Positions 18,275-23,111 of a stretch of 64,000 bases of DNA are shown one piece after another. The notes beneath the pieces are model-generated. The model saw only the letters and a program-made list of their open reading frames with translations. It did no database searches and was not told the DNA's origin. The translations under genes and the position numbers were made by a program. Source of the stretch: Flavobacteriales bacterium (GTDB lineage Bacteria > Bacteroidota > Bacteroidia > Flavobacteriales_F > PHOS-HE28); contig JAIOIH010000026.1 in the NCBI GenBank assembly GCA_019912395.1, positions 84,812-148,811 on the forward strand, in the 5' to 3' direction. Each line of letters begins with the position of its first letter. The stretch's first letter is position 1.

Positions 18275-20800
18275 TCAATACAGCAGCTCGTTCGTATTCC
18301 CGAAAGGCCTTCTTAACTCGTACTTCAGGTCCTGTAGCACGCTGGCCTTCACGCTGATGCGGAAGGTGAAGCTCTTGCGCACGCCCATCGGGATCACGTT
18401 CGCGTTGAATTCCCAGCAGTGCAGGTCCCAGTAGAGGTTCAGCGAGGTGGGCGTCCATTCCTGGGCCTCCATGTCGTACCCGCTACTGAAGCCGAGCTTC
18501 CAGTACTTGAGGATGTTGATGTCCCCGCTGAAGAGCACGCTCTGTGTCTGCTGTTCGGTGTACTCCTTTGCGCGGTAGTTGCGTGCCATGCCCCAGCTGT
18601 AGTTCACCCGCAAGTGCCAGGGGATGCTGAAGTTCACCCGGGCTCCCTTGCTGGGGTCGGCCTCGGCCACCACCTGCTCATCGCTGTTGGGCTCACCCAG
18701 GGGCTTACCATGGCGCTTGCTCTGCAGGTCGAAGCCCAAGGCCGCGGTGGCACTGCTCGGGTGAGCGAGCGACCCGTCCAGCGAGCGTGTGGGGCGGTCC
18801 ACATTGCGGCCCAAGCTGTCCGTAGCGTAAGGGTTCCAGTTGCTGGCGAGGTTGAGGTCGAGGAAGTTGAGGAGCCTGGTCCGCGCTGCGATGTTCACGG
18901 GCGACCAGTTCACGGAATCCTTCAGCAGATCGTAGTTTGCATTGATGCCGAGGTAATCCAGGACCTTGATCTTGGTGAACTGCGGATCACCCTTGGCATC
19001 GGGCTTCCGCGATAGCATCTTGCCCTCCACACTTTGTACCAGCCCCAGTGAGACCAAGCCGCTGGAGTTAGGTGAAGGCTGGCCGAAGATGCCGATATCA
19101 TAGGGTGAATAACTGCCGGTGCTTCCTCCGGGACCGTATGGACCGCTGATGCGGGTATCCTTCCCCGGCAGGTAGGTGAGCGAGGCGGAGGGGGTGATCA
19201 CGTGGCGGATGGCCTTCAACCTGCCGCTGCGGAACGAATACATGCCGTACAACTTGCTGGTGGCGGTAGCCCCGATATTCCAGTTGAACACGTTGTTGAA
19301 CCCGGGTATGGTATCCACGGCAACGGAATCATTTGCGGGATAGTAGGTCTTGTTCAACGCATCGAAGTAGGTGCGGTCGGTGATGTTCAACTGGGGGTTC
19401 AACGTGAAGGCGCGGGTCTTGATGGAGGTGCTCATCGAACCGGTATGGCGCACGCCATTGCGCATCTGATCGATCAGGTTCGGGATGTTCTGGATGGAGA
19501 TCTGGTCCTCCGTGGTGTTCAGCCGGTTCTCGAAAACCGAGTTCCACGTGACGCCGATGCGCTCGAACCATTTCTGCCGGGTGGCGGTCTCCGGCCGGAA
19601 CCATGCGCCCGGGAAAAAGCGTTGCACGTTGAAGTTCATCGAAGGCAGGGTGACGTCGAAGGTGCGGTTGATGGTGTTCTGGCTATGGCGGGCGGCCACG
19701 CTGAGGCTGTATGGCTTTCCGGGCCATAGGTGGCTCCAGTTCACGTTGCTTTGGAAGGTGTTGCTGAGGTAGTCCTGGGTGGAGCTGTTGAAGTTGTTGG
19801 TGAAGTTCTGGCTGGAGCCGATGTTCACGCTGGCATTGAAGTGGTTGGTGAGGCTGGCACGCGGGTCCATCAGGTGGTTCCAGCGGACGAAGAAGGTGCG
19901 TTGCTCGCTGAAGTCCGGATATTCACGGATGCTGTTGAGCTTGTCGCTGTACTGCAGGTCCATGGAACCGCCGAAGCGATAGCGTTTTTTGTAGCGTGTC
20001 ACGGAACGCAGCCCCCAGCTGCCCTTGCTGTAGATGTCCCCGGTGAGCTGCTCGTCAAAGTTGTCACTGATGGGCAGGTAGTAGCCGCCGTTCAGCAGGA
20101 AGAGACCGAACTGGTCCGAGGTGCCCCAAGTGGGGATGAGGAGACCAGCGGAGCCACCTTTGTGATTGGGGAAGAAGCCGAACGGTGCCACCAAGGGTGT
20201 GGGCACATTGCCGACCTTCATGATGGCCGGCCCCATCACGATCTTGTCGTCGGGGATCACCATCATTTTGGTCACATCGAAGCGGTAGTGGGGGTGGGGG
20301 CGATCGCAGGTGGTGAGGCTGCCGCCACGGCTGTGGATCTCGCCGTTCGCATGGCGCTTGCTCAAATGCGCCAAGGCGTACATCTGGGATTCCCGGGTCC
20401 GCACCTCCCTGATCAGACCTTCCTTGGTCCTGAAATTATAGCGGATGCTATCCGCCGCTACCTCCTGCCCACCTTGGGTGAATTGCGGGGATCCCACGGG
20501 CATGCCGGTGCTGTCCAGCGTGCCGAACGCCTGCACTTCCTCATGCGCCAGGTCCAGCATGATCCGGTCCGCAGTGAGCTCCACGTCCTGGTATTTCACG
20601 GTGGCCGCACCAAAGAGGTACACCGTTTGCTTGGCCAGATCGTAACGCATGCTGTCCCGCGCACTATACTTCACTTCACTTTGCAGGGCCTGTGCCGTCG
20701 CGGTAGCCGTCGCGGTTACTGACATCAACGTGATGAAAATCGCGCGGGCCGCTGTCCCGGTGCGAAAAGGAAGGGGGATACATTCGCGGCGTCGGGCCAT
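18275..20800 (-). CDS. lptD: LPS-assembly protein LptD-like outer-membrane protein
   Basis: An 841-residue protein of the Bacteroidota LptD/OstA type, which inserts LPS into the outer leaflet. A signal peptide (ITLMSVTATATATAQA) is followed by an LptA-like N-terminal region (YDLAKQTVYLFGAATVKYQD, VELTADRIMLDL). A long barrel follows, with conserved GPAIMKVGNVPTPLVAPFGF and FFPNHKGGSAGLLIPTWG. The ATG at 20800 (MARRREC) gives the best signal peptide; 20842 is an alternative, closer to the promoter element at 20872-20879. It is divergent from the amidase gene, and the 5' ends appear to overlap. A larger reading frame extends to 21136 but would run through the amidase coding sequence. Confidence 0.9.
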   Translation of the reverse strand: MARRRECIPLPFRTGTAARAIFITLMSVTATATATAQALQSEVKYSARDSMRYDLAKQTVYLFGAATVKYQDVELTADRIMLDLAHEEVQAFGTLDSTGMPVGSPQFTQGGQEVAADSIRYNFRTKEGLIREVRTRESQMYALAHLSKRHANGEIHSRGGSLTTCDRPHPHYRFDVTKMMVIPDDKIVMGPAIMKVGNVPTPLVAPFGFFPNHKGGSAGLLIPTWGTSDQFGLFLLNGGYYLPISDNFDEQLTGDIYSKGSWGLRSVTRYKKRYRFGGSMDLQYSDKLNSIREYPDFSEQRTFFVRWNHLMDPRASLTNHFNASVNIGSSQNFTNNFNSSTQDYLSNTFQSNVNWSHLWPGKPYSLSVAARHSQNTINRTFDVTLPSMNFNVQRFFPGAWFRPETATRQKWFERIGVTWNSVFENRLNTTEDQISIQNIPNLIDQMRNGVRHTGSMSTSIKTRAFTLNPQLNITDRTYFDALNKTYYPANDSVAVDTIPGFNNVFNWNIGATATSKLYGMYSFRSGRLKAIRHVITPSASLTYLPGKDTRISGPYGPGGSTGSYSPYDIGIFGQPSPNSSGLVSLGLVQSVEGKMLSRKPDAKGDPQFTKIKVLDYLGINANYDLLKDSVNWSPVNIAARTRLLNFLDLNLASNWNPYATDSLGRNVDRPTRSLDGSLAHPSSATAALGFDLQSKRHGKPLGEPNSDEQVVAEADPSKGARVNFSIPWHLRVNYSWGMARNYRAKEYTEQQTQSVLFSGDINILKYWKLGFSSGYDMEAQEWTPTSLNLYWDLHCWEFNANVIPMGVRKSFTFRISVKASVLQDLKYELRRPFGNTNELLY
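20779..20786 (+). promoter_or_regulatory. Candidate -7 element of the amidase operon (TACATTCG)
   Basis: This TAnnTTCG match lies 12 nt before the ATG at 20799, a spacing like that seen for other genes in the window. It lies inside the signal-peptide codons of lptD, so it could be a chance match. Confidence 0.35.
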
Positions 20801-22052
20801 GCGGTCCGGGTTGGGATCGGATATGCAGGGTTCAAGGGACATCAGCAGGAGCGCCTGCTTGGCGACCGCGCCGAAAGTAGCGGTTGGCCCGCGTGCGGCA
20901 CGGCGTTTCATCAGGAATGCGGGCGGTGGATGGGTGCTTGTGGCGGTTTTTGTGCTGGCCTTCTCCGCATACGCCATGCCGCAAAAGTCGGCAAGCAACG
21001 CCAATCGCGTCGGAACCGTGGTGTTGGACGCCGGCCATGGTGGCAAGGATCCCGGAAATCTCGGTACCAAGCGGTACAAGACCACCGAGAAGGACATCGC
21101 CCTGGCCATCACCCTGCTGGTGGGCAAGTACATCAATGAGAACCTGCCGGAGGTGAAGGTGCTCTACACCCGGGAGGACGACCGCTTCATCGAACTGATG
21201 GAGCGCAATAACATTGCGAACAGGAACAAGGCCGATGTGTTCATCAGCATCCACTGCAATGCCAACTCCCGCTCGGACCCCCATGGCTGCGAGACCTATG
21301 TGATGGGCCTGCACAAGACCGAGGCGAACATGCGCGTGGCCATGAAGGAGAACGAATCCATCCTCCTTGAGGACGACCACGAGCTGAAGTACGACGGTTA
21401 CGACCCCAAGGATCCCGAGAGCATGATCGCGCTGAGCCTGCGCCAGAACGCCTACCTGGACCACAGCCTGCTGCTGAGCTCCTTGATCCAGGAGCAGTTC
21501 AAGGACCGGGTGGGGCGCGTGGACCGGGGGGTGAAGCAGGCCGGCTTCCTCGTGATCAGCTACACCACCATGCCGGCGGTACTGGTTGAGCTGGGATTCC
21601 TCACCAACCCCAGCGAGGAGGACTTCCTGCAGAGCACCAAGGGCCAGGAATACATGGCCTCGGCCATGTACCGCGCCTTCAAGGAATACAAATCGCGGAT
21701 CGAGCACAAGGATGTCAACTTTGACCTGGAGGCCAAGGCGGAAAGCACCTTCGTGGACACCTCCGGGAACGCCACGGACCCGGTGGCTGACCATGGGGTC
21801 CGCTTCAAGGTGCAGATCATCACCAGCAGCAAGCGGATCCCTGCGGGTTCCCCCAAGTTCCAAGGGCTGGAAGTGGAGGAGATGCAGGCCAATGAACTTT
21901 GGCGGTACAGCGTGGGCAGCGCAACCGACCTTGCCGGTGCCCGGAAGATCCAGCAAACCTGCAAGGACAAAGGGTTCAATGATGCGTTCATCACCGCGTG
22001 GAGGAAGGGGGAGCGCATCGATCTGCAGCAAGCCGTTAATTTGGTCCGGTAA
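20799..22052 (+). CDS. N-acetylmuramoyl-L-alanine amidase with SPOR domain
   Basis: An Amidase_3 (AmiC-like) zinc hydrolase that cleaves the stem peptide from MurNAc. Zinc ligands are seen in DAGHGGKDPGN, in the Glu of YTREDDRFIEL and in ISIHCNAN; the catalytic Glu is in VELGFLTNPSEE. A C-terminal SPOR-like domain (about 335-417, FKVQIITSSKRI to ERIDLQQAV) should target it to denuded glycan at the septum. The hydrophobic export segment (VLVAVFVLAFSAYA) is preceded by about 45 residues, so the start is uncertain: ATG 20799 or 20823. It begins an operon with an MlaD-like gene and two Fe-S genes. Confidence 0.92.
   Translation: MRSGLGSDMQGSRDISRSACLATAPKVAVGPRAARRFIRNAGGGWVLVAVFVLAFSAYAMPQKSASNANRVGTVVLDAGHGGKDPGNLGTKRYKTTEKDIALAITLLVGKYINENLPEVKVLYTREDDRFIELMERNNIANRNKADVFISIHCNANSRSDPHGCETYVMGLHKTEANMRVAMKENESILLEDDHELKYDGYDPKDPESMIALSLRQNAYLDHSLLLSSLIQEQFKDRVGRVDRGVKQAGFLVISYTTMPAVLVELGFLTNPSEEDFLQSTKGQEYMASAMYRAFKEYKSRIEHKDVNFDLEAKAESTFVDTSGNATDPVADHGVRFKVQIITSSKRIPAGSPKFQGLEVEEMQANELWRYSVGSATDLAGARKIQQTCKDKGFNDAFITAWRKGERIDLQQAVNLVR
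20872..20879 (-). promoter_or_regulatory. -7 promoter element of lptD (TACTTTCG)
   Basis: Minus-strand TACTTTCG, an exact TAnnTTYG match, lies 29 nt before the ATG at 20842 and 71 nt before the ATG at 20800. The element is inside the amidase coding frame. Inference by motif and position. Confidence 0.5.
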
Positions 22053-22088: not shown

Positions 22089-23111
22089 GTGCCCAAGATC
22101 AAACGCCAGTATTCCATCGCGCTCATGGTGATCGGAGGCATCGTCCTGCTGATCTTCGGGCTCAACTACCTCAAGGGGCTGGACCTCTTGCAGCGAAGCA
22201 ACATCTACCATGCCGTGTATAATGATGTTTCCGGCATCAACGATGCCACCCCGGTGCTTTATCACGGATACAAGGTGGGGCAAGTGGTGGGCACGAACAT
22301 GCTGCCGGACGGCTCCGGCAGGATCGCGGTTACCATGCAGATCAACGAGGACCGCCTGAAACTGACCAAGGATACCCATGCGGAACTGTACAGTGCCGAT
22401 CTCTTCAGCCGTGCAGTGCGCATCCAGTTGGGCACGGGCCCCGAGGCGCAGCGCGGCGATACATTGCTGGGCGGTACCGAGATGAGCCTTACGGAGTCGG
22501 TGGGTGCCCAGATCGATCCTCTGAAGCGAAAAGCGGAAGGCATGTTGGCCAGCGTGGATTCGCTGCTCAGTGCCATGCAGCTGATCCTCAACGAGAATGC
22601 GCGCGGCGACATCGATGCCAGCTTCACCAACCTGCGGGAAACCCTGGAAAATATCAACTCCACCACCCATAATCTCGATCTGCTCATCGCCAAGGAAAGT
22701 CAGCACATCAGCAGCATCCTCTCCAATGTGGACCGGGTCACCGCCAACTTGGCCGCCAACAACGACCATCTCAACAACATCTTCGCCAACATGGACAGCG
22801 CCTCGGCCGCTTTGGCCAATGGCCGCCTCGAAAAAATGATGGCCAACCTGGAGTCCACCTCCGCGGACCTGAAGGCAGCCATGGCACGGCTCAATAGCGG
22901 GGAGGGCACCTTGGGCAAGTTGATGACCGACGACAGCCTCTACAGCAACCTCAACGCCGCCACCCGGCAGATGGACCTGTTGATGGAGGATCTGCGCCTC
23001 AACCCGCACCGCTACCTCTCCATCTTCGGCCGCAAGGACAAGTTGCCCAAGCTCAGCGGCTCGGACATCGAGCGCATCCGCGAGGCCTATCCGCCAAAGA
23101 CCACCCCATGA
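22089..23111 (+). CDS. MlaD-like MCE-domain protein
   Basis: A 340-residue protein with one N-terminal anchor (IALMVIGGIVLLIFGLNYL, about residues 10-28). An MCE domain follows at about 38-115 (YNDVSGINDATPVLYHGYKV, ADLFSRAVRIQLG), then a long helical tail (150-330) like that of phospholipid-shuttling MlaD/Mce proteins. These work with an MlaE/MlaF ABC module in lipid traffic between the membranes; no such module is in the window. The start is GTG at 22089. It follows the amidase and overlaps the Fe-S gene by 4 nt (ATGA), so the redox genes are translationally coupled to it. Confidence 0.9.
   Translation: MPKIKRQYSIALMVIGGIVLLIFGLNYLKGLDLLQRSNIYHAVYNDVSGINDATPVLYHGYKVGQVVGTNMLPDGSGRIAVTMQINEDRLKLTKDTHAELYSADLFSRAVRIQLGTGPEAQRGDTLLGGTEMSLTESVGAQIDPLKRKAEGMLASVDSLLSAMQLILNENARGDIDASFTNLRETLENINSTTHNLDLLIAKESQHISSILSNVDRVTANLAANNDHLNNIFANMDSASAALANGRLEKMMANLESTSADLKAAMARLNSGEGTLGKLMTDDSLYSNLNAATRQMDLLMEDLRLNPHRYLSIFGRKDKLPKLSGSDIERIREAYPPKTTP

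Follow-up and report, generated by a model that had tools for sequence, protein, structure and literature searches.

We analysed a 64,000-nucleotide (nt) stretch of a Flavobacteriales genome (GenBank assembly GCA_019912395.1, contig JAIOIH010000026.1, positions 84,812 to 148,811), here called the window, in which lptD, encoding the lipopolysaccharide (LPS)-assembly barrel, and a gene for an N-acetylmuramoyl-L-alanine amidase are divergent (Table 1). The host is an uncultured flavobacterium, and its named close relatives are uncultured Flavobacteriales bacteria from metagenome assemblies. Each gene has a candidate -7 promoter element that lies beyond the start of the other gene, within that gene's reading frame. 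We consider this architecture, in which opposed promoters are embedded in opposite reading frames, highly likely from the sequence. The fuller reading, that lptD and the amidase gene are served by two sigma-A-type promoters that face each other from within the other gene's codons and, as we infer, interfere with one another, is on balance probable.

Table 1. Features of the lptD/amidase locus, with positions in the window.
Feature	Position	Strand	Remarks
lptD (LPS-assembly barrel, LptD_2)	18275..20842	-	Pfam PF19838, E 2.6e-132; preferred start ATG 20842
N-acetylmuramoyl-L-alanine amidase (Amidase_3)	20823..22052	+	Pfam PF01520, E 1.7e-50; preferred start ATG 20823
Putative -7 element of the amidase promoter, inside lptD	20779..20786	+	TACATTCG; strict TAnnTTYG in 41/42 genus loci
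Putative -7 element of the lptD promoter, inside the amidase frame	20872..20879	-	TACTTTCG; strict TAnnTTYG in 28/42 genus loci
Predicted antisense overlap of both messenger RNA 5' ends	20791..20867		77 nt, both start codons within; predicted from the -7 positions and the -12 to -5 rule
Likely head-to-head coding sequence overlap	20823..20842		20 nt; third codon positions of both genes coincide; two conserved starts
CATG named by the initial annotation	20798..20801		Present; probably not the start in use
MlaD-domain gene 3' of the amidase gene	22089..23111	+	Pfam PF02470, E 1.1e-10

We searched 118 genomes, of which 44 belong to the window's genus (besides the window's own genome), and used 60 of the 73 genomes from the same class. 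The search yielded 43 genus loci including the window's own; 42 contain both lptD and the amidase gene, and L010, which lacks lptD, was excluded. Two genus genomes (G003 and G025), with the amidase gene cut at contig ends, contributed no genus locus; L017 and L018 are nearly identical, and L064 to L071, apparently contigs already among the genus loci, were not counted. The window's own clade comprises ten loci (L001 to L009 and L011, with L001 being the window's own locus). The outgroup began as 79 loci, from which six without lptD, L142 (lptD N-terminus unaligned) and L170 (conserved cores 1404 nt apart) were removed, leaving 71; 19 outgroup loci (L072 to L090) may duplicate other genomes of the set.

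Bacteroidota sigma-A promoters are described as TAnnTTTG without a clear -33 element (PMC9723704, PMC7366714). In about 400 kb of the window's own genome, we found 41 TAnnTTYG sites (21 TAnnTTTG and 20 TAnnTTCG) in the -50 to -10 bins of 185 gene starts, each with an upstream gap of at least 60 nt, where the overall density predicts about 1.0 site; the reverse-oriented control (CGAA..TA) gave 2. Because TAnnTTYG is so concentrated upstream of gene starts, we regard TACATTCG and TACTTTCG as perfect members of the local -7 consensus. They have both the box type and the placement shortly before gene starts that mark a Bacteroidota sigma-A -7 promoter. The 76 sites pooled from this genome and a second genus genome give the consensus TACcTTYGC. 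The likeness to the described Bacteroidota promoters thus extends to the -7 element and the lack of a clear -33 (PMC9723704, PMC7366714); the difference is at position 7, where in this G+C-rich genus C equals or exceeds T in frequency (C in 58% and T in 42% of the pooled sites). A scan for sigma70-type promoters and terminators returned nothing promoter-like at the locus, as is expected because the host is a member of the Bacteroidota.

It is very improbable that the two motifs are operator halves or chance matches instead of promoters. Each site is nearly an inverted copy of the other, and the failure to find a -33 box would also fit an operator; but the same motif stands 4-50 nt before unrelated genes throughout the genome, the distance from copy to copy varies between 51 and 120 nt within the genus, and shuffles do not reproduce the pair. 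Judged by sequence, the crossed promoters of lptD and the amidase gene are real: the two -7 elements that the initial annotation had proposed match the genus consensus, and each lies inside the other gene. In F. psychrophilum, the -7 box is reported to occupy positions -12 to -5 (PMC9723704), and this rule places the predicted 5' ends of the two messenger RNAs (mRNAs) at 20791 (plus strand) and 20867 (minus strand). The antisense overlap predicted in this way is 77 nt, compared with the "about 75 nt" given by the initial annotation.

Conservation in relatives, which that annotation had put forward as a check, is borne out at two levels: the crossed -7 elements are kept in the genus, and opposed -7 pairs are kept across the class. 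When the alignment is anchored on the lptD core, the fixed motif columns of the plus box carry 1.8-2.0 bits in the 31 loci of equal distance, including the wobble positions of both frames, and its flanks carry mostly 0.1-1.0 bits, with a few columns of 1.2-2.0 just downstream. In 18 loci aligned on the amidase core, the minus box stands out from its flanks in the same way. Where a genus box is not strict, the equivalent place reads TACTTTTC, TAATTTTC or TACTTTGC.

In the window, the two boxes are spaced 93 nt start to start. Spacing is 51, 72 or 93 nt, in 21-nt steps, in 37/42 genus loci, and 75, 78, 78, 90 and 120 nt in the others. We considered helical phasing of the 21-nt steps and dropped it: the events are few, and the further spacings exist. 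In five genus loci (L030, L032, L033, L036 and L040), the lptD-side -7 reads TACTTTGC, which fits TAnnTTGY. In F. psychrophilum this is the box of the alternative promoter SM5, and LptE and further LPS genes are among the targets given for it (PMC9723704). A switch of sigma factor may have taken place at lptD in these five loci. Searching for SM5-type TAnnTTGY in the 42 genus loci and in the 25 outgroup loci without a 20-60 nt pair gave no clear extra opposed pair beyond L155, where an SM5-type minus box lies 9 nt from the plus box.

The positions of the boxes relative to both genes are locked in frame. In 42/42 genus loci, the distance from the lptD core to the plus box (102-165 nt) is 0 mod 3, that from the plus box to the minus box (51-120 nt) is 0 mod 3, and that from the minus box to the amidase core (125-317 nt) is 2 mod 3. 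On a tree built from both proteins, these intervals underwent at least 10, 7 and 19 length changes, respectively, and the chance of keeping the frame is about 1/3 per length change. Since the interval lengths vary only in steps of 3, each promoter lies within the other gene's reading frame. The core-to-core distances of 17 outgroup loci fall into all three classes (10 at 2 mod 3, 5 at 0 and 2 at 1). Both frames are also free of stops. From the plus -7 to the signal peptide, the amidase frame contains 0 stops in 2005 codons, with 16 and 60 in the other two frames; from the core to the minus -7, the lptD frame contains 0 stops in 2554 codons, with 40 and 100 in the others. The frame lock and the stop-free frames together are, we argue, a signature of translation across both promoters.

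Where do the two genes start? The initial annotation had both begin on one shared CATG. That CATG is present, and it supplies an ATG to the amidase frame on the plus strand (20799) and to the lptD frame on the minus strand (20800). These two starts, however, occur only in the window and its nearest relative (L002), at the same offset and in phase, whereas ATG 20823 (amidase) and ATG 20842 (lptD) have homologues in 10/10 loci of the window's clade. We conclude that this genome probably does not use the shared CATG as a start. The idea fares better elsewhere: in 20/42 genus loci, a different in-phase CATG, 40 nt after the start of the plus box, gives lptD its ATG and supplies an amidase ATG as well. 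A CATG yields an in-frame ATG for both genes in exactly the phase that is locked here (core distance 2 mod 3), and a shared CATG may be how this phase was set.

With the conserved starts, the coding sequences (CDSs) of lptD and the amidase gene likely overlap head to head. Because of the frame lock, the absence of stops and the starts conserved in the window's clade, we class the two as a divergent overlapping gene pair that shares CDS 5' ends on opposite strands, with the start codons in use inferred. An in-frame ATG lies between the boxes for lptD in 42/42 genus loci and for the amidase in 39/42.

Several observations count against this arrangement. No -33 box is visible in the 76 pooled sites from the two genus genomes, and the minus -7 departs from the consensus in 14/42 genus loci. 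Three loci (L025, L038 and L041) have no amidase ATG between the -7 elements, and 28/42 have an in-frame ATG nearer the amidase signal peptide, where a shorter or second form of the amidase is possible. The amidase frame is also poor in stops outside the CDS (6 in 1533 codons upstream of its promoter); frame openness alone is weak support, because the antisense-like openness of this phase already lowers the number of stops. Finally, codon-phase entropy in the N-terminal extensions showed no excess at wobble positions (permutation p 0.49), and the amino acids of the extensions are therefore not conserved. In our reading, the extensions are signal-peptide n-regions that are translated but can vary freely in amino-acid sequence.

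The nearer ATGs and the missing wobble excess would also fit crossed promoters without any CDS overlap. The amidase would then start beside its signal peptide (at GTG 20934 here, at an ATG in many relatives), and the lptD promoter would sit only in the untranslated leader of the amidase mRNA; by eye, several of the 28 loci have short, ordinary-looking signal peptides. We think this unlikely. The remaining 14/42 loci, the window's included, lack an ATG in the stretch that separates the lptD -7 from the amidase signal peptide, and each of them has one between the boxes. Even within these 14, the distance that separates the minus -7 from the amidase core keeps its frame through 7 changes. Counted from the minus -7 as far as the signal peptide, the amidase frame has no stop in 1152 codons, with 8 and 49 stops in the other two frames. 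The initial annotation had named an amidase start downstream of 20930 as the case that would overturn its proposal; such a start is possible only at GTG 20934 or later, and it would leave the signal peptide without a charged start. A coding-score gene caller put the two gene starts at 20977 and 20934; we consider automatic start calls for lptD and the amidase gene likely to be wrong in this genus. In-frame insertions of about 85-175 nt between the lptD -7 and the amidase signal peptide are seen in L034, L040 and L030/L033/L036/L037, where they lengthen the N-terminal extension of the amidase without a stop.

Opposed boxes are also found beyond the genus. We found opposed TAnnTTYG boxes 20-60 nt apart in 46/71 loci of other families in the class, against a mean of 1.2 and a maximum of 5 in 300 shuffles, and at least one opposed pair in 26/41 families; back-to-back pairs occur in 11 of the 71. 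Spacing in the outgroup clusters at 28-38 nt and is 13-63 nt for most; in Kordia algicida (L080), a class member that can be cultured, the opposed boxes are 53 nt apart. The open frames leave no room for CDS overlap in 12 of 17 outgroup loci examined, and could overlap in the other five (L044, L045, L060, L061 and L063). As a control, we scored other divergent gene pairs: opposed -7 elements at 20-60 nt occur in 4/38 such pairs of a class genome (G048) and in 0/90 of two genus genomes, where widening the range to 8-130 nt gave 1/90. The difference between 46/71 and 4/38 has a Fisher p of 2.6e-8, with relatedness ignored. In the genus-side Fisher test, 28/42 counts pairs at any spacing, whereas the control of 0/90 counts those at 20-60 nt. 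The opposed geometry is not unique to lptD and the amidase gene, since four G048 pairs share it, and divergent genes whose 5' ends overlap may be more widespread in Bacteroidia. The G048 stretches L175, L186 and L188 carry other divergent pairs with opposed -7 elements 26-55 nt apart.

These control pairs raise the question of whether the geometry reflects compactness without function, with close divergent genes short of space and crossed -7 elements persisting by inertia. Three of the four G048 cases have called gaps below 90 nt, which makes compactness a serious rival for the cause, and the spacing is variable in the class. Yet the crossed order is far commoner at lptD and the amidase gene than at other pairs, and it recurs in most of the families noted above. 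Moreover, the genus has predicted transcript overlaps of 35-104 nt, compared with about 12-22 nt predicted at the commonest class spacings, instead of having uncrossed its promoters. We put the chance that compactness is the explanation just short of even.

With the amidase promoter in lptD codons and the lptD promoter in amidase codons, each RNA polymerase would have to read across the promoter and the start codon of the opposite gene. If the crossed promoters do act on each other, the firing of one promoter would occlude the other and lower its output, and the complementary 77-nt leaders could pair over both start codons. Both lptD and the amidase gene would be kept low and reciprocally balanced. 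Mutual interference of this kind, by transcription and by antisense pairing, is the likeliest mode of action for the locus, but we propose such a functional effect tentatively, as somewhat less probable than its absence. A still broader proposal is doubtful: that the locus is a class-wide conserved cis switch in Bacteroidia, in which two opposed promoters couple wall hydrolysis (amidase) with the export of LPS (lptD), each promoter being absorbed into the other gene's frame in this genus, so that the transcription and translation starts of both genes share 100 nt and are mutually exclusive. Were the promoters to act on each other, much of the class would balance LPS export against peptidoglycan cutting in cis, without a regulator.

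Two known systems come close to this arrangement: the excludon, or overlapping 5' transcription, reportedly the subject of Sesto et al. in 2013, and bidirectional promoters with a symmetric -10 element, reportedly that of Warman et al. in 2021. As in excludons, the genes are divergent, and their mRNAs would be mutually antisense at the 5' ends, so that each could act on the other (PMC7154746). Excludons are described as one long transcript over a neighbour (PMC7154746); here the predicted overlap is about 77 nt and reciprocal, with two promoters in the opposite coding frame, and it is kept across the genus. With mRNA overlap predicted from the -7 positions, lptD and the amidase gene would work like a small reciprocal excludon. 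Symmetric bidirectional promoters likewise have two nearby start sites on opposite strands between divergent genes, but those sites are reported to be 7-25 bp apart, usually 18, and to share one symmetric element (PMC10268837). We rejected this identity: the locus has two separate, facing -7 elements, 93 nt apart start to start, with transcripts predicted to overlap, and not one shared element.

Divergent overlaps are strongly underrepresented among overlapping genes (331 of 14958 overlaps, summed from the table in PMC2174442), and their scarcity is attributed there to upstream regulatory needs. The overlap phase of lptD and the amidase gene (123:213) is the commonest among divergent overlaps, at 59% of the 331 (PMC2174442). 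The need for upstream control is held to be the reason why head-to-head CDS overlap is avoided, whereas here both promoters appear to be kept inside the opposite gene, a place where promoters are rarely looked for. Literature searches found no paper that addresses this lptD/amidase arrangement in its title.

Three smaller observations follow. A 6-bp inverted repeat, noticed by eye at about 20844-20859 on the lptD leader strand, was dropped when it proved, again by eye, not to be kept in L003. Downstream of the amidase gene, the MlaD-domain gene is followed by a gene for an iron-sulfur (Fe-S) protein. Lastly, many TAnnTTYG boxes in stretches of the window's own genome and of G010 (L091 to L130) stand only 4-11 nt before the called start codon; with start calls being approximate, these box-to-start gaps hint that mRNAs of the genus are leaderless or nearly so.

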